From the NCBI GenBank assembly GCA_946482595.1, contig CAMLSD010000033.1:1-42582 (forward strand): a stretch of DNA of 42,582 bases. Direction: 5' to 3'. Position 1 is the stretch's first letter; each line of letters begins with the position of its first letter. Made by a program: the position numbers and the translations under genes. The notes beneath the pieces are model-generated. The model was not told the DNA's origin, did not search any database, and saw only the letters and a list, made by a program, of their open reading frames with translations. This DNA is from an uncultured Comamonadaceae bacterium (GTDB lineage Bacteria; Pseudomonadota; Gammaproteobacteria; Burkholderiales; Burkholderiaceae). Below, piece after piece: positions 21,983 through 35,157 of the stretch.

Positions 21983-23139
21983 TCGAGCCGGCCGCAGCCG
22001 CGCTCGTGAGCTGGCGGGGCGCGGCTGGTGAACGCTCTGCACGGTGGCGCTCCCACAGCGGCACGCCGGCCCCACGCCGCGCCGTCGCGGCCGACGACAC
22101 CCTGCCGGCCGACAAGGCCTACCGCCTCGCGTGTGAAGGCACGGCCCTCGTCTGGCAAGGGGACTTCCACAATGCCCGCCAGTTGCTGCAGGCGCTGGCA
22201 CGCCGCATCGACCGGCGTCCGCACAAGGGGCGCCAGGCGGACGCCCCTGCAGAGTCGACGGCGCAGGCCTTTCATCGCCATCGCCAGGCCCAGGGGCACC
22301 GGGCGCGCATCCTGGCGATGCTGGTGCTGCCGGTCGAGCCGGGTCATGTGATCGAGCTGCGCCGCGCCCCCGACGTGCGCGAGGCCTGCGAGGCGGCGTA
22401 CGGTCCGGCCGACGAGCCCTACCTCGTCTCGCTGCGTGAGCTGCAGGGCTTGATCGGCGCGCACGAGTGGCGTCGCAAGGGGGTGGCCGTGAAGGCGCTC
22501 GGCGACGTCATCCATCCGCACTATGGCGTCTTTTCGCCCGTGCGTGGCGAGTACATCGACCTGGTCGCACGCACGCCGCTGCCGGGTGCCCTGGCGCAGC
22601 ATCCGACAGCGTTCGACATCGGCACCGGCACCGGTGTGCTGGCGGCCCTGCTGGCGCGCCGTGGTGTGGCTCAGGTCGTGGCGACCGACATCGACCCGCG
22701 CGCCCTGGACTGCGCCCGCAGCAACCTCCAGCGCCTGGGCCTGGCGCCCCGGGTGCAGCTGCTGCAGGCCGATCTGTTCCCGCCCGGGCAGGCCGGGCTG
22801 CTGGTGTGCAATCCGCCATGGGTGCCCGCGCGGCCGACGTCCACCGTCGAGCAGGCGGTCTACGACCCCGACAGCCGCATGCTGCGCGCCTTCCTCGCCG
22901 GCGCGCGCGAGCACCTTGCACCGGCGGGCGAGGCCTGGCTCATCCTGTCCGACCTTGCGGAACACCTGGGGCTGCGCACGCGCGCCGAACTCGAGGCCTG
23001 GATCGCCGATGGCGGCCTGCAGGTGGTCGGCCGTCTGGACATCCGCCCGCGTCACGGCAAGGCCTTCGACCCGGATGACCCGCTGCACCTTGCGCGCTCG
23101 GCCGAGGTGACCTCGCTGTGGCGCCTGGCCGCCCGCTGA
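21979..23139 (+). CDS. Class I SAM-dependent methyltransferase (NPPW type)
   Basis: A 386-aa protein. The C-terminal half is a Rossmann methyltransferase: SAM-binding AFDIGTGTGVLAALLARRG (about residue 212), acidic loop ATDIDPRAL, and active-site NPPW near residue 278. NPPY/W is the signature of N-methyltransferases acting on amide or exocyclic amino groups (PrmC/HemK, RlmG and DNA methylases). The N-terminal 180 residues are a less typical Arg/Ala-rich region with no named domain. It starts at GTG overlapping the ankyrin stop codon. It could modify rRNA or a protein; the target is unknown. Confidence 0.86.
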   Translation: MIEPAAAALVSWRGAAGERSARWRSHSGTPAPRRAVAADDTLPADKAYRLACEGTALVWQGDFHNARQLLQALARRIDRRPHKGRQADAPAESTAQAFHRHRQAQGHRARILAMLVLPVEPGHVIELRRAPDVREACEAAYGPADEPYLVSLRELQGLIGAHEWRRKGVAVKALGDVIHPHYGVFSPVRGEYIDLVARTPLPGALAQHPTAFDIGTGTGVLAALLARRGVAQVVATDIDPRALDCARSNLQRLGLAPRVQLLQADLFPPGQAGLLVCNPPWVPARPTSTVEQAVYDPDSRMLRAFLAGAREHLAPAGEAWLILSDLAEHLGLRTRAELEAWIADGGLQVVGRLDIRPRHGKAFDPDDPLHLARSAEVTSLWRLAAR

Positions 23140-23199
23140 ACCTGCGCGACCCCCTTGGCGCCGCGCGGCGCGACGATGTGTAACACCGCGCGAAGCCTG

Positions 23200-23228
23200 T
23201 TGACATGTTATGTCACGCCACCTATCGT
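23200..23228 (+). promoter_or_regulatory. Sigma-70 promoter with overlapping palindromic operator for the PspA-flotillin-ATPase cluster
   Basis: TTGACA at 23200-23205 (perfect -35), a 17-bp spacer and TATCGT at 23223-23228. A perfect palindrome TGACAT-GTT-ATGTCA (23201-23215) covers the -35 and half of the spacer, as expected for a repressor or anti-activator site. It is the only clear promoter before the seven-gene run and lies 44 bp from the first start codon. No sigma-54 element (GG-N10-GC) of the PspF-controlled kind was found. Confidence 0.68.
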
Positions 23229-23271
23229 GTGTGCATCGGGCCAATCGCCAGTGCCTGTCACGAGAGGAGCC

Positions 23272-23688
23272 ATGAAAACGCTGCATGAACAGTTGAGGGG
23301 GCTGGACGCACTGACCGGTGCGGCCATGGGCGGACTGGGCGTGAACCTCCAGCCCATTCCCGGCGAGGTGCCCGTGATCCAGGTGAGCATCGAGGGGCGC
23401 GAGGAGCTGCCCATCTTCATCACCTGTTCCGATTCGCAGGTGCTGTGCATGTGCTACCTGTGGGCCGACGACGAGGTGCGCCCTGAACTGCGCACCGACA
23501 TGCTCGAGACCCTGCTCGACCTGAACCCTTCGGTGCCGCTGTCGTCCTTCGGGCGTGTGGGTCATCGCTACGTGCTGTTCGGCGCCCTGGCGCGCGACGC
23601 CCGTGTCGAAGACATCGCCAAGGACGTCGCCGTGCTCAGCGACAACGCACTCGACGCGCTGGAAGCGCTGTCGGAGTTCCTCAAGTAA
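23272..23688 (+). CDS. DUF2170 (YjfI-like) protein
   Basis: A 138-aa cytosolic protein of the DUF2170/YjfI family, recognised from its overall pattern (LPIFITCSDSQVLCMCYLWADDEVRPE, PSVPLSSFGRVGHRYVLFGAL) and its place before a PspA gene, as in the E. coli yjfIJ pair. Structure-based comparisons have likened the family to secretion chaperones of the CesT/Tir type, so it may be an adaptor for PspA. The ATG at 23272 follows GAGAGGAG. It is the first gene of the cluster and ends 12 bp before pspA. Confidence 0.9.
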   Translation: MKTLHEQLRGLDALTGAAMGGLGVNLQPIPGEVPVIQVSIEGREELPIFITCSDSQVLCMCYLWADDEVRPELRTDMLETLLDLNPSVPLSSFGRVGHRYVLFGALARDARVEDIAKDVAVLSDNALDALEALSEFLK

Positions 23689-23700
23689 GCGGAGACCGCC

Positions 23701-24423
23701 ATGTCCGTGATCAAGAAGCTCATGACCCTGCTGCGCGGCAGCGCCCGCGAGATCGGCGAAAGCGTCATCGATGCCAACGCCACCCGCATCTATGAGCAGG
23801 AAATCCTCGACGCGAAGCACAGCATCGACCAGGCCAAGGGCGACCTCACCGGCGTGATGGCCAAGGAGATGCAGACCGCCCGCCAGATCGAAAAGCTGCG
23901 TGCCGAGGTGCAGCGCTACGAGGGCCTGGCCGTCGAGGCACTGAACAAGCAGAACGAAACCCTGGCCGAGGAAGTGGCTGCCAAGGTGGCGGCGCTCGAG
24001 GCCGAGCTCGACGAGCAGACCAAGGCGCACGCAAGCTATGCCGTGCAGGTCTCACGCCTGAAAGACCTCATCAAGACCGCCGAGGCGCGCATCCGCGAGC
24101 ACGAGCGCGAGATCGGCATGGCCAAGACCACTGAAAGTGTTTATCGCGCCACCCGTTCGATCTCCGAGAACATCGGCAGCAGCGGCTCGCGCCTGGTCAA
24201 TGCGAAGGAATCGCTTGAGCGCATCAAGCAGCGCCACGAGGAACTCGCCGACCGTATGACCGCGGCCAGCCAGCTCGACAACGAGTTCGGCCATGGCGCC
24301 CTTGAGAAGAAGCTCGAAGCCGCCGGCATCGGCGGGCAGGGCGAGCGCACGCGCCAGGCGATGGAGCGTATTCGCGCCCGCCAGGCTGCTGCAGGACAGC
24401 CGGCACCCAAGGCCGAGGGATGA
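23701..24423 (+). CDS. pspA: PspA/IM30 family membrane-remodelling protein (YjfJ-like)
   Basis: A 240-aa coiled-coil protein of the PspA/Vipp1 (bacterial ESCRT-III-like) family. Residues 1-25 form the amphipathic membrane-binding helix, followed by a long hairpin of heptad-rich helices to about residue 165 (EQEILDAKHSIDQAKGDL, EVAAKVAALEAELDEQTKAHASYA) and a C-terminal helical region (ESLERIKQRHEELADRM). Such proteins oligomerise on the inner membrane and relieve envelope stress. It lacks the pspBC and pspF neighbours of the enterobacterial psp operon; its partners here are YjfI-, YqiJ- and YqiK-like proteins and a giant ATPase. It overlaps the next gene by ATGA. Confidence 0.95.
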   Translation: MSVIKKLMTLLRGSAREIGESVIDANATRIYEQEILDAKHSIDQAKGDLTGVMAKEMQTARQIEKLRAEVQRYEGLAVEALNKQNETLAEEVAAKVAALEAELDEQTKAHASYAVQVSRLKDLIKTAEARIREHEREIGMAKTTESVYRATRSISENIGSSGSRLVNAKESLERIKQRHEELADRMTAASQLDNEFGHGALEKKLEAAGIGGQGERTRQAMERIRARQAAAGQPAPKAEG

Positions 24424-24809
24424 GCCCGCGTGCGCCGCGGCATGCCGTGGCCAAGCCGGCCCGCTGGACTGGCTCGGACGATGCGCTCAAGGCCGTGCAG
24501 GTGGCTTTCGACGTCGAAGAGGCGGTGCTGGATGCCGTGCGCACGGCCGCCTTCGAGAACAACGTGTCCACCTCCGATCAGATCCGCCGCCTGCTCGACC
24601 TGCCCACGTCCACCCGGCCCAAGCGCCCGCGCTTGACCGTGTCGCTCACGGCAGCGGACTATGAGGTGCTGGCAGCGCGCTATGGCGTGCCGCTGGACGA
24701 CCGGCTCACCATCAAGGAGCGCGTGACCGAAGAGCTGATCCGTTTTGCCCGCCCCGAGAAGGGCACGCGCGCCGCGCGTGCGCCCCGGGCCGGGCCGGCG
24801 CGGCGCTGA
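24420..24809 (+). CDS. Small protein resembling two ribbon-helix-helix units in tandem
   Basis: A 129-aa basic protein with no annotated family that I can name. Residues 24-60 (KAVQVAFDVEEAVLDAVRTA then NVSTSDQIRRLLDLP) read like a strand-helix-helix RHH DNA-binding unit. Residues 70-112 (RLTVSLTAADYEVLAARYG ... IKERVTEELIRFA) repeat the pattern. The C-terminal tail is Arg/Ala-rich. A tandem RHH could form a DNA-binding pseudodimer and so be the cluster's own regulator; the palindrome at 23201-23215 is the obvious candidate site. Alternatively it is a structural adaptor. It overlaps pspA by ATGA, so it is co-translated with it. Confidence 0.72.
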   Translation: MSPRAPRHAVAKPARWTGSDDALKAVQVAFDVEEAVLDAVRTAAFENNVSTSDQIRRLLDLPTSTRPKRPRLTVSLTAADYEVLAARYGVPLDDRLTIKERVTEELIRFARPEKGTRAARAPRAGPARR

Positions 24810-24886
24810 ATCTGCGCGCCGGCAGGGATCACCCTCCCTGCCACACCACACAAGACCAGACAAGACACACCAAACGGAGGGGACGC

Positions 24887-25528
24887 ATGGGCAGCCTGCT
24901 GCAAGCCATGACGAGCTATCCCACGGCCATCTTCACCGTGCTGCTGAGCGTGGTGATGATCTACTGGCTGCTGGCGATGCTCGGGCTGGTCGATTTCGAG
25001 TCCAGCGGCATCGACCTGGACCTCGACGCCCACGCCGACGCCGATGCGGCCGATCTCGGCACCATCGCCAGCTACGTCGTGGCGCTCGGCCTCAACGGTG
25101 TGCCGTTCTCGGTGGCCGTGAGCCTGGTGGTGCTGATCGCCTGGACGGTCTCGGCCCTCCTGGGTATGTGGGTGCAGCCACTGGTGCCCACCTGGGTGCT
25201 GGGGGTGGTGGTAGGCACCGGCGTGCTGGCGTTGTCACTTGCGGTGGCGGTGGTGCTGACCGCCCGCATCGTGCGCCCGATGCGCGGCCTGTTCGTCACG
25301 CACAGCGCCATCGCGAACGCCGCCCTGGTGGGCCAGGCCTGCCGGGTGCTGACCGGCCGCGTCGACGAGCAGGTCGGCCGGGCCGAAGTGGCGCGCCGCG
25401 GCGCCGGCATCAATATCCGCGTCTGGGCCCACACGCCCAACACCCTGACCAAAGGTTCGGCTGCGATCATCCTCGAGTACGACGCAACGCGTGCTCGCTA
25501 CCTGATCCAGGCCGCGCCCGACAGCTGA
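24887..25528 (+). CDS. yqiJ: YqiJ-like membrane protein with C-terminal OB-fold (NfeD-related)
   Basis: A 213-aa inner-membrane protein. Three hydrophobic segments are seen at about residues 12-36, 62-88 and 93-122, with an acidic loop (DLDLDAHADADAADLG) after the first. Residues 130-210 form a beta-rich OB-fold-like domain (ALVGQACRVLTGRVDEQVGRAEV, INIRVWAHT, AAIILEYDATRARYLIQ). YqiJ/NfeD proteins are regular partners of flotillins and help place them in membrane microdomains. Here it directly precedes the YqiK-type flotillin (73-bp gap). GGAGGGG precedes the ATG. Confidence 0.9.
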   Translation: MGSLLQAMTSYPTAIFTVLLSVVMIYWLLAMLGLVDFESSGIDLDLDAHADADAADLGTIASYVVALGLNGVPFSVAVSLVVLIAWTVSALLGMWVQPLVPTWVLGVVVGTGVLALSLAVAVVLTARIVRPMRGLFVTHSAIANAALVGQACRVLTGRVDEQVGRAEVARRGAGINIRVWAHTPNTLTKGSAAIILEYDATRARYLIQAAPDS

Positions 25529-25601
25529 CGACACCGCGGCCTCGCGGCTCGCGGAACGATCCAACAAGACAACCGATTCACCGACACCACAGAGGGACCC
25601 C

Positions 25602-27770
25602 ATGGAGCCGATTCTCATTGCCATAGGCGTGCTGGTCATCCTGATCTTCGGCATCTTCGCGATGTTCGCGAAGTTCTACCGCAAGATCGAACAGGGCTAC
25701 GCACTGATCGTCAACACGCTGCGCGCCGAACCCGAGGTCACCTTCACCGGCCGCATGGTCTACCCGATCATCCACAAGGCCGAGCTGATGGACATCTCGG
25801 TCAAGACCATCGAGATCGACCGCACCGGCAATGAGGGCCTGATCTGCCGCGACAACATCCGCGCCGACATCAAGGTGAAGTTTTTCGTGCGGGTCAACAA
25901 GACCGCCGAAGACGTGCTCAAGGTGGCCCAGGGCATCGGTTGCGAGCGTGCCTCCAACCACGACACGCTCGAAGAGCTGTTCTCGGCCAAGTTCTCCGAG
26001 GCGCTGAAGACCGTGGGCAAGGCGATGGATTTCGTCGACCTCTATCAGGCGCGCGACCGCTTCCGCGACGAGATCATCCAGCAGATCGGTGACGACCTCT
26101 CGGGCTATGTGCTCGAAGACGCGGCGATCGACTACCTCGAGCAGACGCCGCTGTCCAAGCTGGATGCCAACAACATCCTCGACGCGCAGGGCATCAAGAA
26201 GATCACCGAGATCACCGGCGTCGAGCATGTGCGCACCAATGAGCTGCGTCGCAATGCCGAGATGCAGATCAAGAAGAAGGACGTCGAGACCCAGGAGGCG
26301 ATGCTCGAGCTCGAGCGCCAGCAGGCCGATGCCACCGCCCGTCAGGCCCGGGAAGTCGCCACGGTGAAGGCCCGCGAGGAAGCCGAGACGGCCAAGATCC
26401 AGGCCGAGGAAAAGACCAAGTCCGAACTGGCGCGCCTGCAGGCCGAGCAGGCGGTGTCGGTGCAGCAGGAAAACGTGTTGCGCGAGAAGGAAGTGGCCGA
26501 GAACAACCGCAAGCGTGCCGTGGCCATCGAGGAAGAAAAGGTCATCCGCGCCCGTGAGCTGGAGATCGTCGACCGCGAGAAGGAAGTCACCCTGCAGAAG
26601 ATCGACAAGGACAAGGCGGTCGAAGTGCAGAAGAAGGCCATTGCCGACGTCGTGCGCGAACGCATCGTGGTCGAGCGCACCGTGGCCGAGCAGGAAGAGG
26701 CCATCAAGGAACTGCGCGTGACGGCCGAGGCCGACCGCACCAAGAAGTCCACCATCATCCTGGCCGAAGGGCAGGCCGAAGAGAAGATGCTGATGGAAGT
26801 GAAGGCGGCCGAGGCCCAGGAGCGTCGCGCGCGTCACAAGGCCGGTGAAGAACTCACGCTGGCCGATGCCAAGCTCAAGGTGGCCGAACGTGAGGCCGAG
26901 GCCCGCAAGCGCGAGGCCGAAGGCCTGGAGGCCATCACCGCGGCACCGGGCCTGGCGCAGGCCAAGGTGCAGGTGGCCTCGGCCGAGGCTCAGCTGGCAA
27001 CCTTCCAGTCCGAAGCCGCAGGCAAGGAAAAGATCGGTCTGGCCGAAGTGCATGTGCGCACCGCCGATGCCGAAGCCACGCTGAAGGCCGGTCAGGCTGA
27101 CGCGCAGGTGATCGAGGCCCGGGCCCAGGCCGAAGCCGCCGGTCTGCGTGCCAAGCTGGAAGCCGAGGCCGAGGGCAAGGAAAAGCTGGGCCTGGCCGAC
27201 GTGCACGTGCGCGCGGCCGATGCCGATGCCATCGTCAAGGCCGGCCAGGCCGAAGCGCAGGTGATCGAGGCGCGCTTCCAGGCCGAGGCCAAGGGCCTGC
27301 GCGAGAAGTTCGAGGCGATGCGTGCCATGAGCGGCGAGACGCGCGACCACGAAGAGTTCCGCATGCGCCTGGAGAAGTCGCACACCGAAACCATGAAGGG
27401 CATCGAGGCCCAGACCTCGATCGCGCGCGAACAGGCCGAGGTGCTGGGCACCGCGCTGCAGAACGCCAAGATCGACATCGTGGGTGGCCAGGGCGAGTAC
27501 TTCGACAGCTTCGTGCGCGCCCTGTCGCTGGGCAAGGGCATCGACGGCGTGGTGGGCAAGAGCAACACGCTGCAGGTCGCCTTCAAGGACCACCTCACCG
27601 GCGAGCGCGATTTTGTCGGCGACCTGCGCGAGATGGTCGGGGCGCTCGGCACCTCGTCGGCCGAACTGCAGAACCTGAGCGTGGCCGCGCTGGTGGCACG
27701 GGTGATGCGCGACGGCGACGAGGCGCAGAAGTCCGCGCTTCAGACCCTGGTGCAGTCGCTGCGCAAGTAA
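25602..27770 (+). CDS. yqiK: YqiK-type flotillin / band-7 (SPFH) protein
   Basis: A 722-aa protein. Residues 5-24 form an N-terminal membrane anchor (ILIAIGVLVILIFGIFAMFA). The SPFH/band-7 domain spans about 25-210. A very long Glu/Ala/Lys/Arg-rich coiled coil runs from 210 to 610, and a globular tail (VGGQGEYFDSFVRALSLGKGID) follows. It should scaffold a functional membrane microdomain together with the YqiJ-like partner. It is much longer than E. coli YqiK (about 550 aa), partly because a 51-residue coiled-coil unit is tandemly duplicated (474-524 and 525-575). It ends 3 bp before the giant ATPase gene, so both are surely co-expressed. Confidence 0.95.
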   Translation: MEPILIAIGVLVILIFGIFAMFAKFYRKIEQGYALIVNTLRAEPEVTFTGRMVYPIIHKAELMDISVKTIEIDRTGNEGLICRDNIRADIKVKFFVRVNKTAEDVLKVAQGIGCERASNHDTLEELFSAKFSEALKTVGKAMDFVDLYQARDRFRDEIIQQIGDDLSGYVLEDAAIDYLEQTPLSKLDANNILDAQGIKKITEITGVEHVRTNELRRNAEMQIKKKDVETQEAMLELERQQADATARQAREVATVKAREEAETAKIQAEEKTKSELARLQAEQAVSVQQENVLREKEVAENNRKRAVAIEEEKVIRARELEIVDREKEVTLQKIDKDKAVEVQKKAIADVVRERIVVERTVAEQEEAIKELRVTAEADRTKKSTIILAEGQAEEKMLMEVKAAEAQERRARHKAGEELTLADAKLKVAEREAEARKREAEGLEAITAAPGLAQAKVQVASAEAQLATFQSEAAGKEKIGLAEVHVRTADAEATLKAGQADAQVIEARAQAEAAGLRAKLEAEAEGKEKLGLADVHVRAADADAIVKAGQAEAQVIEARFQAEAKGLREKFEAMRAMSGETRDHEEFRMRLEKSHTETMKGIEAQTSIAREQAEVLGTALQNAKIDIVGGQGEYFDSFVRALSLGKGIDGVVGKSNTLQVAFKDHLTGERDFVGDLREMVGALGTSSAELQNLSVAALVARVMRDGDEAQKSALQTLVQSLRK
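27021..27326 (+). repeat. In-frame 153-bp tandem duplication within the flotillin gene
   Basis: The segment starting GGCAAGGAAAAG at 27021 recurs at 27174. The two units share the protein pattern GKEK-(I/L)-GLA-(E/D)-VHVR-(T/A)-AD-A-(E/D)-A ... KAGQA-(D/E)-AQVIEAR-x-QAEA. The unit is 51 codons, an exact number of residues, and lengthens the coiled coil without breaking the frame. Divergence between copies indicates an old duplication. Confidence 0.8.
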
Positions 27771-27773
27771 ACC

Positions 27774-30700
27774 ATGGCCGACACGTCCCAGGGCGCGGCG
27801 CAGGACGACGCCGCCCGCACCGAGGCCATGGTGGCCGAAAGCGGCAGCTACGAGCTGCTGAAGAAGCGCCTGATCGACCAGGGCAACACCCTGCTGTCGC
27901 GCACCCAGGCGCTCAACGAGGCCCGCCTGGCCGAGTTCGGCCGCATGGAGCAGGCGCTGGTGCTGCGCACCCGGGCCCGCACCGAGAACAACTGCGTCGC
28001 CCGCGACATCGTGCGCATCGGCGACCAGCTGCTGTTCGGCTACAACGTCTTCATCGGGCTGCGCAAGGAAACCAACGTCGCCGACGTCTTTGCGCTGTAC
28101 CGCCTGACCCATGCCGATGGCCAGGATGCCGCCGACGAGCTCGAGCAGGTGCCGCTGGCCGGCAGCTTCCTGGAAGATCCGCGCTTCGTGTCGGACTTCC
28201 GCGAGCTGCATGCCTACTACAAGCAGGCCACGCTGCTGCAACTGCGCGTCACGGCCGACAAGCTGCTGGCGGCCTTCCAGATCGGCCAGCAGCTGCACGA
28301 CGTGCGGGTGTTCCGCTGGAGCCTGGAGCGTGACGGCAGCGTGCGCTACGTCGACAACCGCGGCGAGCGCGACATCGCGCTGCCGGCCACGCACGACTTC
28401 GAGTGGACCCTCACCACCCGCGAAGACCATGTCGGCGGCAAGCATCCGCACATCAACGTGCTCGACACGGTGTTCGTCGAGACCCTGGGCGGTGACCTCA
28501 CGATCAAGGTCGAGAACAACACCGAGACCGGCCTGGGCATCTACAGCGAGCCGGTCGAGGACCGCAACCAGTCACTCACCGATGCCGAGGTGGCCTATGC
28601 GCGGCTGGGCCTGCTGATCCTGCTGCGCGTGCGTCCCTACCGTGAGCAGGTCACCCGCTACCTCGTCTACAACACCCGCACGCAGCAGGTCGAGCGCATC
28701 GATGCCATCGGTGTGTCGTGTGTGCAGCTGCCCGAGGACCAGGGCCTGATCTTCCCGGGGGGCATCTACCTCCAGTCCGGCGAATTCAAGCGCTTCGACC
28801 TGCCCGGTGAGGTGGTGGGCAACCTGCGGTTCAAGCGCATGATGCGCTCGCCCAACGGCGAAGACGTGCTCTACGTCTTCTATCAGCCGGGCTCGGGCCA
28901 CTATGCGCTGTTCACCTACAACCTGATCAACAAGACGCTGGCCACTCCGCTGGTGGCCAACGGCTATGCGCGCTTCCCCGACGGGCGCATCCTCGTGTTC
29001 CAGGCCGACCAGGGCGAGCCCACACGGGTGCACCCGATGCAGCTGTGGCGCACACCGTTTGCCAGCGAGGAGCACGACAGCGCCCAGGTGCGCGGCACCG
29101 GCTTTTTTGCCCGTGTGGGCAATGCCGAACTGGTGCGTGGCGTGTCCGACCTGATGGGCATTGCCCGCAGCGTGCGCGAACAGGTGCCCACCCGCGCGGC
29201 CTATGAAGACCTGATCCGCCAGTGCACCCGGGTGGCCGACGCCTACTTCTGGCTCGAGGATCCCGAGGCCGGCGGCCTGCTGGCCGAGCTGCGTGCCATT
29301 GCCGATGCGGCCCGCACGACCCTGGCCGAGTTCGAGAAGGTCGACACCATCCGCCGCGACACGGCGCGCGCGCTCGCCCAGGCGCAGGCCGAACAACGCA
29401 GCCTGATGACCGACATCGCCAGCACGCTGTGGCGCAAGCCCGAGGACTTCATCCTCGCGCTCGGCCGCCTGCGCGAGCGGCGCGGCCACCTGCAGGCCCT
29501 GCGCGAGCTGCGCTACACCGACCTGCCGCTGATCGAATCGATGGACGGCGAGCTGGCCACCGAGCAGCAGCGGGTGGGCGAGCGGGCCATGCAGTTCCTG
29601 GCCGGGGAGCAGGCATTCGACGGCCACCGCCGCAGCCTGGACAAGGCCACGGCCGACCTTGCCCAGGCCGGCACCACCTCGTCGGTGTCACAGGTGCTCA
29701 GCGGCCTGGACGAAACCGCCGCGGGCCTGGACCTGCTGACCGAACAGCTCGGCAGCCTGCCCGGGGGCGACGCCGTCACGCGCACGACCATCCTGGACCG
29801 CATCTCGGCCCTGTATGCCGACATCAACCGCCTGCGGGCCGACGCCCGCAACCGGCGCCGCAGCATGGGGGCGAGCGAAGCCGCAGCCGAGTTCGGCGCC
29901 CAGTTCAAGCTGTTCGGCCAGGCGGTCGAGAATGCGCTGGAGTTTGCCGACACCCCGGAGAAGTGCGACGAATCGCTGACCCGGCTGCTGGCCCAGCTCG
30001 AAGAGCTCGAAGGCCGCTTTGCCGAGCAGGACACCTTCCTGGCCGACATAGCGAGCAAGCGTGAAAGTGTCTATGAAGCGCTGTCGGCGCGCCGGCAGAG
30101 CCTGGTCGAGTCCCGCCAGCGCCGCGCGCAGGCCATGGTCGATGCGGCATCGCGCATCCTCGACGGCATCGGCCGGCGCGTTTCGCAGCTCACCGACCTG
30201 CCCCAGGTGCACAGCTACTTCGCTGCCGACCCCCTGTTGGCCAAGCTGCGCACCCTGATCGCCGACCTGCGCACGCTGGGCGCCAGCGTGGCGGCCGACG
30301 ACCTCGACACCCGGCTCAAGTCGGCGCGTGACCAGGCGTTGCGCGCCGTGCGCGACCAGCGCGAACTGGTGGCCGACGACGGCAACACCCTGCGCTTCGG
30401 CAAGCATGCCTTCACGATCAACCGCCAGCCGCTGGACCTGACGCTGGTGCCCCGGGACGGCCGTCTGGCCTTCCAGATCACCGGCACCGACTACATGGCC
30501 CCCGTCGACGATGCCCGGCTTGAACGGTTGTCGCATCGCTGGGACCAGCCCCTGGTCTCTGAAACCGCGCAGCTCGCACGCGCCGAATACCTCGCCGGGC
30601 GGATGCTCGAAGCGGCGCTGGCCGGGCGGCTCGACACCCCCTGGCCGCAACTGCGCGCCTGGGTGGCGGAAGGCCCCGAGGCGCAGTCGCGCCTGCTGGA

Positions 30701-33065
30701 GGTGGTGCGCCGGTTCTCGGCGCCGCGTTACCAGGAGGGCTACCAGAAGGGCGTGCACGATGAAGACGCCGTGCGCATCCTGGCCGCGCTGCTGGCCATG
30801 CAGGACGCCGCCGGGCTGCTGGCCTATGGCCCGACCGAGCGGGCGCTCGCGCTGCTGTACTGGGAGCATGGCCGCTTCGTGGCCGAGCGGGAGTCGCTGC
30901 AGCGGCGCGCCCGTGCGGCACTGCAGATGCAGGCGCTGTTCGGCACTGCGGCCGGTGAGGGCGCCGACGCGGTGGCCAGTCCGCTGGTGCGCCTGGAGGC
31001 CGAGACCGCGCGTGCGCTGGCGGAGTTTGCCCAGGGCTTCGACCCCGGGCTGCTCGAACCACCGGGTGACGCCACGGCCGGCGCGGTCGGCCCGGCCTTG
31101 CCTCCCGAGGCCTGGGCCCACACCCTGTGCAACCAGGCCGCGGCCTACCTGGTGCGCCAGCTTGCCGTTGACCTCGACGTGCAGGGCTGGAGCGTGTCGG
31201 GTGCCGGCGAGGACCTGGCGGCGGCACTCACGCGCGAGCTCGACCGCAGCGGCCGGCTGGCGGCCTGGCGCCATGACCTCGACGCCGCCGCGCCGGCCGA
31301 GCGCTGGCGCCTTGCGCGCGACTGGGTGCGTGCCTATGCCCAGGCCCAGTCGCACGCCCGCGAGGGGGCCGAGGCGAACGCGGCACGCGCCTGGGTGGAC
31401 GACGCCGCCAGCGTGCTCGCCGTGCCGCGCCACCGCGCGCGCATCAACGCCATGCTCGACACCGTGGTCGAAGGCCTGCGCAGCGAACACCCGCGCATCG
31501 TCGACACCCGCATGGCGCTCAACCTCAACGACTTCTGGCGGCGTTACCTGCACCATGTCGGCCAGGTGGTGCCCGAGTTCGAGCAACTGCAGTCGTTGCG
31601 GCACGAGGTGCTGGCCGACGAAAAGAAGCGCCTGCGGCTCACGCAGTTCCAGGCCAAGCCGCTGTCGACCTTCGTGCGCAACCGGCTGATCGACGAGGTC
31701 TACCTGCCCATCATCGGCGACAACCTGGCCAAGCAGATCGGCGCCAGCGGGGAGGGCAACCGCACCGACCGCATGGGCATGCTGCTGCTGATCTCACCGC
31801 CCGGCTACGGCAAGACCACGCTGATGGAGTACGTGGCCGACCGCCTCGGACTGATCTTCGTGCGCATCAACTGCCCGGCCCTGGGCCACGACGTCACCGC
31901 CATCGACCCGGCGGTGGCCGGCAACAGCGCGGCGCGGCAGGAGCTGGAAAAGCTCAACCTCGGCCTGGCGATGGGCAACAACGTGATGCTGTACCTCGAC
32001 GACATCCAGCACACGAACCCCGAGTTCCTGCAGAAGTTCATCGCACTGGCCGACGGCACCCGCCGCATCGAAGGCGTGTGGAATGGTGAACCCCGCAGCT
32101 ACGACCTGCGCGGCAAGCGCTTTGCGATCGTGATGGCAGGCAACCCCTACACCGAGTCGGGCGACGTCTTCAAGATCCCCGACATGCTGGCCAACCGCGC
32201 CGACATCTACAACCTCGGCGACGTGCTGTCGGGACGCGAGGCCCTGTTTGCGCTGTCCTACATCGAAAACAGCCTGACCGCCAACCCGGCGCTGCTGCCG
32301 CTGGCCTCGCGCGACCCGCAGGACGTGCACCGTCTGGTGCGCCTGGCGCAGGGCGAGGAGGTGCCGGCCAGCGAGTTTGCGCATGCCTACAGCGCGGTCG
32401 AGCTGCAGGAGCTGACCGCCTTGCTGCAGCGCCTGTTCAAGGCGCGCGACCTGCTGCTCAAGGTGAACCTCGCCTACATCGAGTCGGCGGCGCAGCACGA
32501 TGCCTACCGCACCGAGCCGCCCTTCAAGCTGCAGGGCAGCTACCGCAACATGACCAAGCTGTCGGCGCGCATCACCGCGCTGATGCGCGAGGACGAGCTG
32601 GACGCGCTGCTGCGCGACCACTATCGCGGCGAGGCCCAGACGCTCACCACCGGCGCCGAGGAAAACCTGCTGAAGCTGGCCCAGCTGCTGGGGCGCCCCA
32701 CGCCCGAGGAAGGCGAGCGCTGGCGCGCCATCTGCGATGAATTCGTGCGCCGGCGCAAGCTGGGCGGCGACGACACCGATGGCAGCACACGCATTGCCTC
32801 GACCCTGCTCGACGTGGCGCGTGCGGTCGATGGTCTCAAGCCGCGCGAGGGCGAACCCAATGAAGGCCTGAAGCTGGCCGAGGCGGTGCTGGCGATCGCC
32901 GTCACCTACCGCAAGATCCTCGTGCCGCTGATCTCGGCCACCGAAAGCCGCATCAAGCTCGACAAGTCCATCCACGATGAAGTCGAGAAAGTGGCGCGCC
33001 AGCTCGACGACCTCAAGACCCGCGGCCGGGGCAGCCCGCCGGCCACCACTGACGACACCGCATGA
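27774..33065 (+). CDS. Giant AAA+ ATPase of the PspA/flotillin cluster ('DNA repair ATPase'-like)
   Basis: A 1763-aa protein. The N-terminus (1-70) is helical. Residues about 75-480 form a beta-rich region, possibly a propeller (repeated pieces such as FGYNVFIGLR, YVFYQPGSGHYALFTYNL, GRILVFQAD). About 490-860 is long helical/coiled-coil; 870-1300 is mixed helical. Then comes an AAA+ module with Walker A PPGYGKTT (about 1342-1349), Walker B VMLYLDDIQH (about 1405) and sensor-1 VMAGNPYTESG (about 1455). A helical tail to 1763 follows. Databases label similar proteins 'DNA repair ATPase', which I believe has no experimental basis. It likely remodels a membrane-bound partner made by this cluster. 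It overlaps the PLD gene by ATGA. No signal peptide or membrane helix is seen. Confidence 0.9.
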   Translation: MADTSQGAAQDDAARTEAMVAESGSYELLKKRLIDQGNTLLSRTQALNEARLAEFGRMEQALVLRTRARTENNCVARDIVRIGDQLLFGYNVFIGLRKETNVADVFALYRLTHADGQDAADELEQVPLAGSFLEDPRFVSDFRELHAYYKQATLLQLRVTADKLLAAFQIGQQLHDVRVFRWSLERDGSVRYVDNRGERDIALPATHDFEWTLTTREDHVGGKHPHINVLDTVFVETLGGDLTIKVENNTETGLGIYSEPVEDRNQSLTDAEVAYARLGLLILLRVRPYREQVTRYLVYNTRTQQVERIDAIGVSCVQLPEDQGLIFPGGIYLQSGEFKRFDLPGEVVGNLRFKRMMRSPNGEDVLYVFYQPGSGHYALFTYNLINKTLATPLVANGYARFPDGRILVFQADQGEPTRVHPMQLWRTPFASEEHDSAQVRGTGFFARVGNAELVRGVSDLMGIARSVREQVPTRAAYEDLIRQCTRVADAYFWLEDPEAGGLLAELRAIADAARTTLAEFEKVDTIRRDTARALAQAQAEQRSLMTDIASTLWRKPEDFILALGRLRERRGHLQALRELRYTDLPLIESMDGELATEQQRVGERAMQFLAGEQAFDGHRRSLDKATADLAQAGTTSSVSQVLSGLDETAAGLDLLTEQLGSLPGGDAVTRTTILDRISALYADINRLRADARNRRRSMGASEAAAEFGAQFKLFGQAVENALEFADTPEKCDESLTRLLAQLEELEGRFAEQDTFLADIASKRESVYEALSARRQSLVESRQRRAQAMVDAASRILDGIGRRVSQLTDLPQVHSYFAADPLLAKLRTLIADLRTLGASVAADDLDTRLKSARDQALRAVRDQRELVADDGNTLRFGKHAFTINRQPLDLTLVPRDGRLAFQITGTDYMAPVDDARLERLSHRWDQPLVSETAQLARAEYLAGRMLEAALAGRLDTPWPQLRAWVAEGPEAQSRLLEVVRRFSAPRYQEGYQKGVHDEDAVRILAALLAMQDAAGLLAYGPTERALALLYWEHGRFVAERESLQRRARAALQMQALFGTAAGEGADAVASPLVRLEAETARALAEFAQGFDPGLLEPPGDATAGAVGPALPPEAWAHTLCNQAAAYLVRQLAVDLDVQGWSVSGAGEDLAAALTRELDRSGRLAAWRHDLDAAAPAERWRLARDWVRAYAQAQSHAREGAEANAARAWVDDAASVLAVPRHRARINAMLDTVVEGLRSEHPRIVDTRMALNLNDFWRRYLHHVGQVVPEFEQLQSLRHEVLADEKKRLRLTQFQAKPLSTFVRNRLIDEVYLPIIGDNLAKQIGASGEGNRTDRMGMLLLISPPGYGKTTLMEYVADRLGLIFVRINCPALGHDVTAIDPAVAGNSAARQELEKLNLGLAMGNNVMLYLDDIQHTNPEFLQKFIALADGTRRIEGVWNGEPRSYDLRGKRFAIVMAGNPYTESGDVFKIPDMLANRADIYNLGDVLSGREALFALSYIENSLTANPALLPLASRDPQDVHRLVRLAQGEEVPASEFAHAYSAVELQELTALLQRLFKARDLLLKVNLAYIESAAQHDAYRTEPPFKLQGSYRNMTKLSARITALMREDELDALLRDHYRGEAQTLTTGAEENLLKLAQLLGRPTPEEGERWRAICDEFVRRRKLGGDDTDGSTRIASTLLDVARAVDGLKPREGEPNEGLKLAEAVLAIAVTYRKILVPLISATESRIKLDKSIHDEVEKVARQLDDLKTRGRGSPPATTDDTA

Positions 33066-33760
33066 CCTCACCCTTGTCCACGGCCGACCTGCTCGTGCAG
33101 ATCGAACAGTCACTGGCCGACGAACGCCTGAGCGACGACGAGCGCCGCGAGCTGACCCGCGCGCTGCGCGAGGCCAGCCCGCCCGAGGAGGGCCTGCGCC
33201 AGTTGCGCAACCGTGCGTTCGAGCTGGTACGCCAGCGCCACGCCGATGCCGACGCGCTGGGCCTGCTGAAGTGGCTCGAAGGGGTGATGCGGGCCTTCGA
33301 CGTTGCGCGCGCGCCGATCGGCACCGTGCGCACGCAGGCCTGGTTCAGCCCGGGCACCGACTGCCTCGACGCCATCGTCGCCCAGTTGCGCGCGGCTCGT
33401 CGCAGCGTGGACATCTGCGTGTTCACGCTGTCCGACGACCGCATCTCGCGCGAAGTGCTGGCGGCCCACCAGCGCGGCGTCGCGGTGCGCCTGCTGACCG
33501 ACAACGACAAGGAATTCGACCGCGGCAGCGACATCGCCAGCCTGCGCGATGCCGGCGTCCCCACCCGGGTGGACCGCACCGACGCCCACATGCACCACAA
33601 GTTCGCGATCTTCGACGGCACCTGGTTGCTCAACGGCAGCTACAACTGGACCCGCAGCGCCTGCGAACACAACGAGGAAAACCTGGTGCTCAGCAACGAG
33701 CCCGACCTTGTTGCGCGCTTCACCCAGGAGTTCGAGGCCCTCTGGCGTGCACTGAAGTGA
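33062..33760 (+). CDS. Cytosolic single-HKD phospholipase-D-fold protein (nuclease or lipase)
   Basis: A 232-aa protein. Residues 1-85 are a charged helical region (SLADERLSDDERRELTRALREA). Residues 90-232 form one PLD domain with a complete HKD motif: His178-x-Lys180-x4-Asp185, then NGSYNW (Gly192-Ser193) and a downstream Glu (EENLVL). One motif per chain means a dimer is needed for activity, as in the Nuc endonuclease and mitoPLD. Unlike Nuc it has no signal peptide, so it acts in the cytosol, on nucleic acid or on the inner leaflet. It is the last gene of the cluster and overlaps the ATPase stop by ATGA, so it is probably made in step with it. Confidence 0.92.
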   Translation: MTSPLSTADLLVQIEQSLADERLSDDERRELTRALREASPPEEGLRQLRNRAFELVRQRHADADALGLLKWLEGVMRAFDVARAPIGTVRTQAWFSPGTDCLDAIVAQLRAARRSVDICVFTLSDDRISREVLAAHQRGVAVRLLTDNDKEFDRGSDIASLRDAGVPTRVDRTDAHMHHKFAIFDGTWLLNGSYNWTRSACEHNEENLVLSNEPDLVARFTQEFEALWRALK

Positions 33761-33796
33761 GCCGGCACGGCTCGTGCGGTCGGGCTGTGCGTGGCC

Positions 33797-34804
33797 TCAC
33801 GGTGCCCAGCGCCAGGCCGTGACGACCGGCCGGTGGTCATTGCCCAGTCCGTCGACTACCACAGCCTGCACACACTGCCAGCCAGGGCCACCCAGCACAT
33901 GGTCGATGCGGATGCCATGCCAGCGTGTGAACTTGGTGTGGCCCAGGCCCCAGCCGGCCTGTGAAAACCCGTTCGTGAATTCACCCCAGTAGCGGCGATA
34001 GATCGCACTTTCGACCGGCATGTTGAAGTCGCCGGCCACGAACATCGGGCCACTGGCCTGCCGGGCCCAGGCCAGGGCCATGTTCGACTCCAGATCACGC
34101 TGGGCCAGGTTGTCCTGCAGTGCCTCGACGCCCGCCAGGCCCAGGTTGCGCAAGGCCACCAGCCCGTCGCGCACGGTTTCGAGGTGCAGGTTCAGCACCT
34201 GCACTTCACGCTGCGGCGTCCGGATCGTGTAGCGCACGATCACGCCCGAGCCCCCGAGCTGCCAGACGTCCTGCGGCGGACGGTCTTCGACCCGGATGAC
34301 GGGGTGGCGGCTGGCCAGGCAGGCGCTGTGGCGCACGTTCACCTGCCAGCCCTCGCGTTCCAGCAAGGGCTGCGCGGCCTGCACGACACTGGCGCATTCC
34401 TGCATCACGACCACATCGGCCTCCAGGCGCCCCAGCAGACCGGGCAGGGCTGAGGGGTCGATGGCACCGCCACCCAGGTTGTAGCTGGCCACACGAAGAT
34501 CGGCCGCGGGCGCTTCAGCGAGCGCCGAGCCCAGCCCCTGCCAGCGCCAGCCCATCACGCCCCACAGCCATACCAGCCCGGCCAGCACCAGCCAGCCCAA
34601 CTGGCGCCGGTCACGCCGCCACGCCCACAGCACCAGCAGCGGCCAGGGCAGCAGCCACACCCAGCGCGGCGCATACATCACCAGCGTGGCTGGCCACCAG
34701 CGGTCGGACAGGCTCCACAGCACCCCGGGCAGCATCAGCATGGCCAGCAGGTACAGCATCACGACGCGGGCAGGCCCGCGCGGGTGGGACACAGAGGCGG
34801 TCAT
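33797..34804 (-). CDS. Membrane-anchored endonuclease/exonuclease/phosphatase (EEP) family protein
   Basis: A 335-aa protein with two or three N-terminal membrane segments (about residues 12-33, 45-62 and 68-90), followed by an EEP-fold domain from residue 100. Fold motifs are intact: SYNLGGG, metal ligand in MQEC, NLHLET, GDFNMP, RIDHVL and GNDHRPVV. The latter two carry the catalytic Asp-His pair. Such proteins cleave phosphodiesters in nucleic acids or lipids; the membrane-anchored form is often of unknown substrate. It converges with the PLD gene (36-bp gap). The start at 34804 has a weak ribosome binding site; an internal ATG at codon 16 is an alternative. Confidence 0.88.
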   Translation of the reverse strand: MTASVSHPRGPARVVMLYLLAMLMLPGVLWSLSDRWWPATLVMYAPRWVWLLPWPLLVLWAWRRDRRQLGWLVLAGLVWLWGVMGWRWQGLGSALAEAPAADLRVASYNLGGGAIDPSALPGLLGRLEADVVVMQECASVVQAAQPLLEREGWQVNVRHSACLASRHPVIRVEDRPPQDVWQLGGSGVIVRYTIRTPQREVQVLNLHLETVRDGLVALRNLGLAGVEALQDNLAQRDLESNMALAWARQASGPMFVAGDFNMPVESAIYRRYWGEFTNGFSQAGWGLGHTKFTRWHGIRIDHVLGGPGWQCVQAVVVDGLGNDHRPVVTAWRWAP

Positions 34805-34914
34805 CAGAGAAGCAAGTCAGTGAAGAAGGTTCATGACGTCGCGGGTAATCGACGGGCCTGCGGCATGGCGGGAAGATGCCATCAACACGAGATTTTCACC
34901 AAGGAGAGTGCACC

Positions 34915-35157
34915 ATGAACGGTATCGACCTGCTCCCGCTCGCTGCGGCCCACCTGATCGGCCTGGCGGCCATTGGATCATGCATCGGCGTGGCCATGTC
35001 CGGCATGAAGTTCCTCGAATCGTCGGCCCGCCAGCCCGAGCTGATGAACGACCTGCAGAGCAAGTTCTTCCTCGTGGCCGGCATCACCGACGGCGCCTTC
35101 ATCATCGCCACCGGGGTGGGGCTGTGGTTCGCGACGGCCAATCCGTTCAAGGGGTGA
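34915..35157 (+). CDS. atpE: Solitary F0F1-type ATP synthase subunit c
   Basis: An 80-aa hairpin of two membrane helices. It has the conserved polar loop ARQPEL and, in helix 2, the proton-carrying carboxylate Asp (FFLVAGITDGAF, aligned with Asp61 of E. coli c). The C-terminus ANPF is like that of betaproteobacterial c-subunits. The helix-1 glycine pattern is weakened (IGSCIGVAMSG versus IGACIGIGIMGG). AAGGAGAG precedes the ATG. No other atp gene is near, so this is a stand-alone, probably extra, copy; whether it enters the c-ring is unknown. Confidence 0.9.
   Translation: MNGIDLLPLAAAHLIGLAAIGSCIGVAMSGMKFLESSARQPELMNDLQSKFFLVAGITDGAFIIATGVGLWFATANPFKG

Follow-up and report, generated by a model that had tools for sequence, protein, structure and literature searches.

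Among operons that carry a DUF2170 gene, a small separate gene, here termed R, and an N-terminal extension found on a long form of DUF2170 each pair with a distinct palindrome upstream of the DUF2170 gene. This pairing is the new finding, the operon itself being known, and no description of it was found in those parts of the literature that were searched; all papers are cited here for the parts of their text that were accessible. The cluster analysed occupies positions 23272-33760 of a 42,582-nucleotide stretch of DNA from an uncultured Comamonadaceae bacterium (the window, meaning the whole of that stretch). It is probably a Betaproteobacterial, bac-type envelope-stress operon with an optional phospholipase D (PLD) as its last gene, switched by the products of its first three genes, and R, together with DUF2170, most likely represses its own operon.

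The seven ORFs of the cluster all lie on the forward strand, spaced in turn by 12, -4, 77, 73, 3 and -4 bp and with ATGA at both overlaps, so the coordinates confirm the original prediction of seven same-direction genes with two ATGA overlaps and gaps of 3-77 bp. The first gene (23272-23688) encodes a short DUF2170/YjfI/BacA-like protein of 138 aa (Pfam DUF2170, 1e-28), for which homology to the crystal chain 8q8o suggests a CesT-Tir-like fold. It directly adjoins the gene for a 240-aa PspA/IM30 family protein (BacB-like; 23701-24423; PspA_IM30, 5.7e-33), which is the arrangement of the group 1 operon in PMC11237479, and R follows at 24420-24809, encoding 129 aa, a probable tandem ribbon-helix-helix (RHH) protein and the proposed autorepressor. 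A 213-aa YqiJ/YuaF-like (NfeD-like) membrane protein (24887-25528) and a 722-aa flotillin/SPFH-like coiled-coil protein (25602-27770) stand in the positions of BacC and BacD. The names YqiJ and YqiK flotillin, given to these two in the original prediction, agree with the gene order and with the operon description in PMC11237479, from which they are taken here, and are not confirmed by Pfam: neither R nor the YqiJ-like protein had any Pfam match, the fifth protein matched Flot below threshold (E 0.018), and no solved relatives were found for the YqiJ-like and flotillin-like profiles. The place of the flotillin-like gene after the YqiJ-like gene is conserved across loci.

The sixth gene (27774-33065) encodes a 1763-aa ATPase in which Pfam recognises DUF3686 (residues 40-492, 3.1e-196), DUF7902 (residues 613-697) and an AAA domain (4.2e-06); the P-loop of the AAA+ module, PPGYGKTT, starts at residue 1342 and the Walker B motif, LYLDD, lies at residue 1406. 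The seventh (33062-33760) encodes a 232-aa PLD superfamily protein (PLDc_2, 9.1e-33) with one HxKx4D motif, HHKFAIFD, at residue 178, as in single-HKD proteins of the MitoPLD/Zucchini/Nuc type. Pfam therefore agrees with the identities predicted for DUF2170, PspA, the AAA+ ATPase and the PLD protein, and the one motif with the single HKD. The best solved match of the PLD protein is a chain of mitochondrial cardiolipin hydrolase, a family also known as a piRNA nuclease, so lipid and nucleic acid are both possible substrates. Its N-terminus also weakly resembles Effector-associated domain 1 (PF19955, E 0.036, below cut-off). Elsewhere in the window, an ATP synthase subunit c-like gene was seen at 34876-35157 (PF00137, 2.2e-11), and none of nine other genes scanned in the window matched an ATP synthase subunit.

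The cluster is a variant of an already published modular operon. Ravi et al. 2024 (PMC11237479) describe a DUF2170-PspA-YqiJ-flotillin-AAA+ ATPase operon with a PLD gene in some Proteobacteria, and the components of this CesT/Tir(DUF2170)-PspA-YqiJ-band7/flotillin-AAA+ operon, including the PLD (HKD) gene, are those of the window; the statement of the original prediction that PspA neighbourhoods had been catalogued was thus right, and the catalogue extends to the PLD gene. The published ATPase is described with an N-terminal beta-propeller and a coiled-coil. The large ATPase of the window is recognised by DUF3686 and AAA, and a literature search on DUF3686 found no paper. In the accessible main text of PMC11237479, RHH genes appear only for other operons, and neither a rhomboid nor an operator sequence was found. 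The closest experimental relative is the bac cluster of Pseudomonas aeruginosa, which was named in 2008 and called monocistronic in the abstract of that paper (PMC2587700). In 2024, bacABCDEF was reported to be co-transcribed by RT-PCR and to have a role in rhamnolipid secretion, biofilm and virulence, and five Bac proteins were raised 6.1- to 13.5-fold in a bacA mutant (PMC10948618). Like the window, bacABCDEF opens with DUF2170 followed by PspA, encodes a membrane protein of 23 kDa and a protein of 76 kDa at the YqiJ and flotillin positions, and continues with two further co-transcribed genes. However, BacA of Pseudomonas is long (206 aa in the database protein P0256), whereas the DUF2170 of the window is short and accompanied by R, and in Pseudomonas loci a rhomboid gene often lies between the ATPase and PLD genes, where the window has none.

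Conservation was assessed in two sets of loci. The named loci came from an ATPase-alignment scan of which the best 80 of 571 confirmed stretches were kept, which biases them toward the kin of the window; the sampled loci came from a search for DUF3686 alone in evenly drawn genomes, which gave 43 further loci (8/398 genomes in the phylum of genome G001 and 7/300 in its order, the centre G001 included, and 34/293 in the order of G002, likewise including that centre). Component profiles were run on all ORFs, some of which have starts that are too long because ORFs were called from the first start codon. Truncated loci (16/80 named, 5/43 sampled) are omitted from the gene counts, leaving 64 named and 38 sampled, among them one sampled locus (L155) that ends 135 nt past the ATPase ORF, where tail genes are not judgeable; four pairs of loci have identical ATPases. 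Among the 64 named loci, from the best 80 of 571, and the 38 sampled loci, YqiJ, flotillin and ATPase occur together in 63 and 38, these three joined by same-strand DUF2170 and PspA in 52 and 14, a PLD gene in 38 and 3, and the complete set of seven in 11 and none; the exact order with no inserted profile is found in three of these named loci (L011, L012 and L014, the last with an additional ORF separating ATPase and PLD) and in none of those sampled. The DUF2170-PspA-R unit lies on the opposite strand in seven sampled loci. PspA went unmatched in four sampled loci that have DUF2170 and R, and in three of these a 212-aa ORF stands in its place. Gene order is conserved across Beta- and Gammaproteobacteria. 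From the co-occurrence counts, the operon is built of two modules, A-B(-R) and C-D-E, with tail genes as optional additions. Its make-up is thus modular, and seven genes working as one fixed machine are not supported; what survives of the single membrane machine is a membrane-stress unit, in line with the conserved order and the bac RT-PCR data.

Two optional genes absent from between the operon genes of the window recur in relatives. A rhomboid protease gene follows the ATPase gene, often before PLD, in 23/64 named loci (best 80 of 571) and 7/38 sampled loci (for example L033:15190-15744 and L040:15263-15814). A TFIIB-type zinc-ribbon gene is present in 23/64 named loci (best 80 of 571) and 11/38 sampled loci, with its place between flotillin and ATPase in 18 of the named and 5 of the sampled loci. 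The profiles for both were built from the loci, with two members of each checked against Pfam: both rhomboids pass the cut-off (PF01694, 4.5e-20 and 6.9e-18), one zinc-ribbon protein passes PF13453 (L002, 9422-9967, 4.5e-08) and the other falls just below it (L046, 9370-9963). In the literature searched for rhomboids with PspA, flotillin or YqiJ, only PMC11237479 was on the subject, with no rhomboid in its accessible main text. Rhomboid protease and zinc-ribbon partners are further components to seek in the membrane assembly.

In 23100-34200 a single promoter-like site was found, the sigma-70-type TTGACA-N17-TATCGT at 23200-23228 on the forward strand. With shuffled sequences averaging 0.7 such sites, this number is not significant by itself, but both the -35 and the -10 box are conserved in related loci around a palindrome. 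The palindrome, TGACAT-GTT-ATGTCA, overlaps the -35 hexamer at 23201-23215, is present as a single copy in the window (TGACATGTTATGTCA) and is the proposed operator. Alignment of 43 sites (41 loci including the window) gives TTGACAT-N-tTATGTC followed by CCTA...T at -10 spacing, with a mean -10 match of 3.8/6 against 2.4 in shuffles. Terminator-like sites on both strands number nine against 5.0 in shuffles, and one on the forward strand lies inside the ATPase gene (29087-29099). A sigma-54 promoter has been proposed upstream of bacA in the P. aeruginosa bac operon; a search of 23072-23271 yielded two weak GG-N10-GC cores (6/12 and 5/12 matches), and the sequence near bacA in three loci (L174, L175 and L177) weak GG-N10-GC matches at best.

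The palindrome is distributed with R. In 81 operons with DUF2170, R accompanies the short form in 44/44 and the long form in 0/37 (43 R/short and 35 long loci once identical loci are removed). TGACAT-N3-ATGTC is found upstream of DUF2170 in 42 of the 44 R loci and in none of the 37 long loci, one of the two R loci lacking an exact site being cut at its 5' end (L047) and the other having a near match (L146). R loci contain 67 sites of the pattern TGACATNNNATGTC, and 66 of these lie no more than 500 nt upstream of the DUF2170 domain; long loci contain none, and the 42 loci without DUF2170 contain one. The long loci have a DUF2170 of about 206 aa with the N-terminal signature SAHYQR..R.RLREQG.VKKEVW.LPE, no R, and a different site: T[TC]ACATGT[AG]A occurs in 36 of 37 long loci and in no R locus, with 69 of its 70 sites in long loci upstream of DUF2170 and none in R or DUF2170-free loci. 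A looser pattern, TNACATGTNA, also matches upstream of DUF2170 in 12 of the 44 R loci, being part of the R site when the spacer is GTT, and at five places in DUF2170-free loci. All these patterns were defined with the first loci in view; the fresh sets are a draw by R alone and the second-type loci. The fresh draw found R in 13/369 genomes and gave 11 new loci, nine of which hold an A-B-R unit in a stretch lacking the ATPase core; six of these nine have the exact palindrome upstream of DUF2170 and three do not (L238, L239 and L243, the last with a near match). Exceptions to the pairing of R with short DUF2170 exist beyond the 81 operons: in two Pseudomonas loci with YqiJ (L176 and L190) the DUF2170 ORF lacks the extension, and about 5 kb of sequence shows no R; L176 has two TCACGCGTGA-type sites and L190 none.

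R is probably a tandem RHH protein. The R of the window has no Pfam or NCBIfam match, it is not recognised by the RHH_1/CopG profile (one homologue reaches E 0.14, below cut-off) and it has no significant match in Foldseek. Its best structural rows, at low Z (5.0 and 4.8), are AvtR and a chain of the F-plasmid relaxosome, both of which we take to be tandem-RHH proteins, and the assignment also rests on predicted helices and on the names of UniRef homologues. The original description of the third gene as tandem-RHH-like is accordingly plausible, with no proof from family models. A split gene, in which R would be the N-terminal extension of long DUF2170 turned into a separate protein, was also considered; a profile comparison, whose alignment held one mis-framed row (L077), detected no homology. 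At most, R and the extension replace each other functionally.

In a quick tree of the ATPase AAA region (82 rows), the alternation between R and long DUF2170 amounts to two changes, so the pairing could be the heritage of one clade, and significance is unreachable for R and its site in independent-pair tests on this tree. This would suit an explanation in which the palindrome belongs to an unlinked regulator (for example TetR- or MarR-like), and R does something else, for instance as a partner of PspA or DUF2170, within the same clade-specific version of the operon. R itself lacks a confirmed match to a DNA-binding family, and two of the 11 freshly drawn R homologues (L237 and L240) have no DUF2170, PspA or exact site nearby, which would also suit such a regulator. 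Against it, A-B-R units carry the site also when no ATPase core accompanies them (the six of nine above), in Beta- and Gammaproteobacteria. Furthermore, copies of the R site elsewhere number six in ~62.6 Mb (12 genomes chosen for a site at the operon; reversed-pattern control, one), which is near the background of 20 comparison genomes (eight places in ~98.6 Mb, control rows 10), these being genomes with a long-DUF2170 operon or no DUF3686, in only part of which R was searched. So few other copies fit a local autoregulator better than a global one, and we regard an unlinked regulator as unlikely, though it is the most serious competitor to autorepression by R.

The second pairing bears on BacA itself. 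The DUF2170 of the window falls far short of the BacA equivalog NF050185 (44 bits against a cut-off of 300; 138 aa against a 206-position model), whereas five of five Pseudomonas/Stutzerimonas proteins exceed it (335-351 bits). The P. aeruginosa BacA database protein P0256 has 206 aa and 268 member sequences; P. aeruginosa was not recognised among the 119 genomes compared (best identity 79%), and BacA is known here as a protein. The crystal chain 8q8o matches residues 61-206 of P0256, the first 60 residues of the long form being absent. BacA was reported as a 16-kDa protein (PMC2587700) and the published structure has 139 residues, so the crystallised form is one that lacks the first 60. Some of this N-terminal segment is strongly conserved in long DUF2170 proteins, and an AlphaFold model of a long relative suggests, at low confidence, a possible strand flanked by two helices.

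Pseudomonas DUF2170-PspA operons that gave no YqiJ match (L178-L189 and L191-L193) likewise have mostly long DUF2170, the extension being present in 14/15, and T[TC]ACATGT[AG]A or T[TC]ACGCGT[AG]A sites. Among these related loci, whose counts are not independent events, extensions with VKRE (n=8) have T[TC]ACATGT[AG]A within 500 nt upstream in seven and the ACGCGT version in none, and extensions with VKHE (n=6) have T[TC]ACGCGT[AG]A in all six and the ACATGT version too in two. The site thus changes with the sequence of the extension, as expected if the extension reads the site. We tentatively suggest, as a reading that may well prove wrong, that DUF2170-PspA operons use two interchangeable autoregulators with PspA as the signal. 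One would be short DUF2170 with a separate tandem-RHH protein on TGACAT-N3-ATGTCA, and the other DUF2170's own DNA-binding extension on paired T[TC]ACATGT[AG]A sites, ACATGT giving way to ACGCGT in operons whose extension has VKHE.

The yjfIJKL operon of Escherichia coli is like the window in that DUF2170 adjoins PspA, with no YqiJ found in the stretch; its yjfI encodes a short form, R is missing from the annotated neighbours and neither palindrome occurs upstream, a further exception to the pairing of R with short DUF2170. Heat-evolved E. coli acquired a one-base deletion 80 bp upstream of yjfIJKL that is thought to raise the operon (PMC12492005). In E. coli K-12, a terminator-like hairpin follows rlmB upstream of yjfI (L245:1023-1054), and 80 bp upstream of the yjfI start codon is the T-run of this hairpin; if the distance was counted from the start codon, read-through caused by the deletion possibly lies behind the upregulation. 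The deletion was considered as a test of R and set aside, since a change at a hairpin T-run with neither palindrome present is uninformative on R.

An anti-phage defence role, with the PLD protein as effector and the other genes sensing membrane damage, is very improbable. In PADLOC the PLD protein does weakly match DrmC, DpdK and related defence PLD proteins (best 1.9e-08, DrmC), and two genes upstream of the operon match over ankyrin repeats and a methyltransferase region. However, the PLD protein matches mitochondrial cardiolipin hydrolase chains (1.4e-30) and PLDc_2 far better, the other operon proteins have weak PADLOC matches (PspA and the ATPase, E 1e-4 or worse) or none, and eight of the ten neighbours scanned have none. 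No strong, specific match to a PADLOC system was obtained with the operon proteins, so the predicted defence-island layout finds no support within the window, as judged from the operon proteins and 10 neighbours, and mutants of the published P. aeruginosa relative are affected in biofilm, rhamnolipids and swarming. A DNA-repair machine, to which the name 'DNA repair ATPase' in databases and Pfam's account of DUF3686 (PF12458) point, is less credible still, given that the ATPase occurs with YqiJ and flotillin genes in 63/64 named loci (best 80 of 571) and 38/38 sampled loci and that no repair family exceeds its curated cut-off among the seven proteins of the window.

The mechanism proposed for the bac-type operon builds on its likely membrane components. 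Flotillin/NfeD pairs organise membrane domains, PspA is an ESCRT-III family member and ESCRT-III polymers are taken apart by Vps4-type AAA+ proteins. By analogy, YqiJ and flotillin would form a platform in the inner membrane where ESCRT-III-like PspA could remodel or seal damage. The giant AAA+ ATPase would then dismantle the assembly as Vps4 does for ESCRT-III, and the PLD protein would trim lipid or nucleic acid locally. R would bind the palindrome at 23201-23215 over the -35 box and repress transcription, DUF2170 (BacA) would couple this repression to PspA, and recruitment of PspA to damaged membrane may relieve it by titration. A BacA-BacB interaction is predicted at 0.981 (PMC13092808), and capture of DUF2170 by PspA would link membrane damage to expression. 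The derepression in the bacA mutant is consistent with the R/DUF2170 model, though that species has a long BacA.

In P. aeruginosa, the search for the regulator behind stress sensing by DUF2170 and PspA has turned on BacA, of which an N-terminally short form was crystallised; the pairing found here names a candidate protein and a 15-bp site. The model offers a reason for the rise of the whole operon upon loss of bacA, and it predicts control of DUF2170-PspA without the classical PspF switch. If the tentative reading of two interchangeable autoregulators is true, damage would be sensed directly via the operon's own effector, with neither PspF nor sigma-54, and the BacA crystal structure would be that of a protein missing its DNA-binding part.
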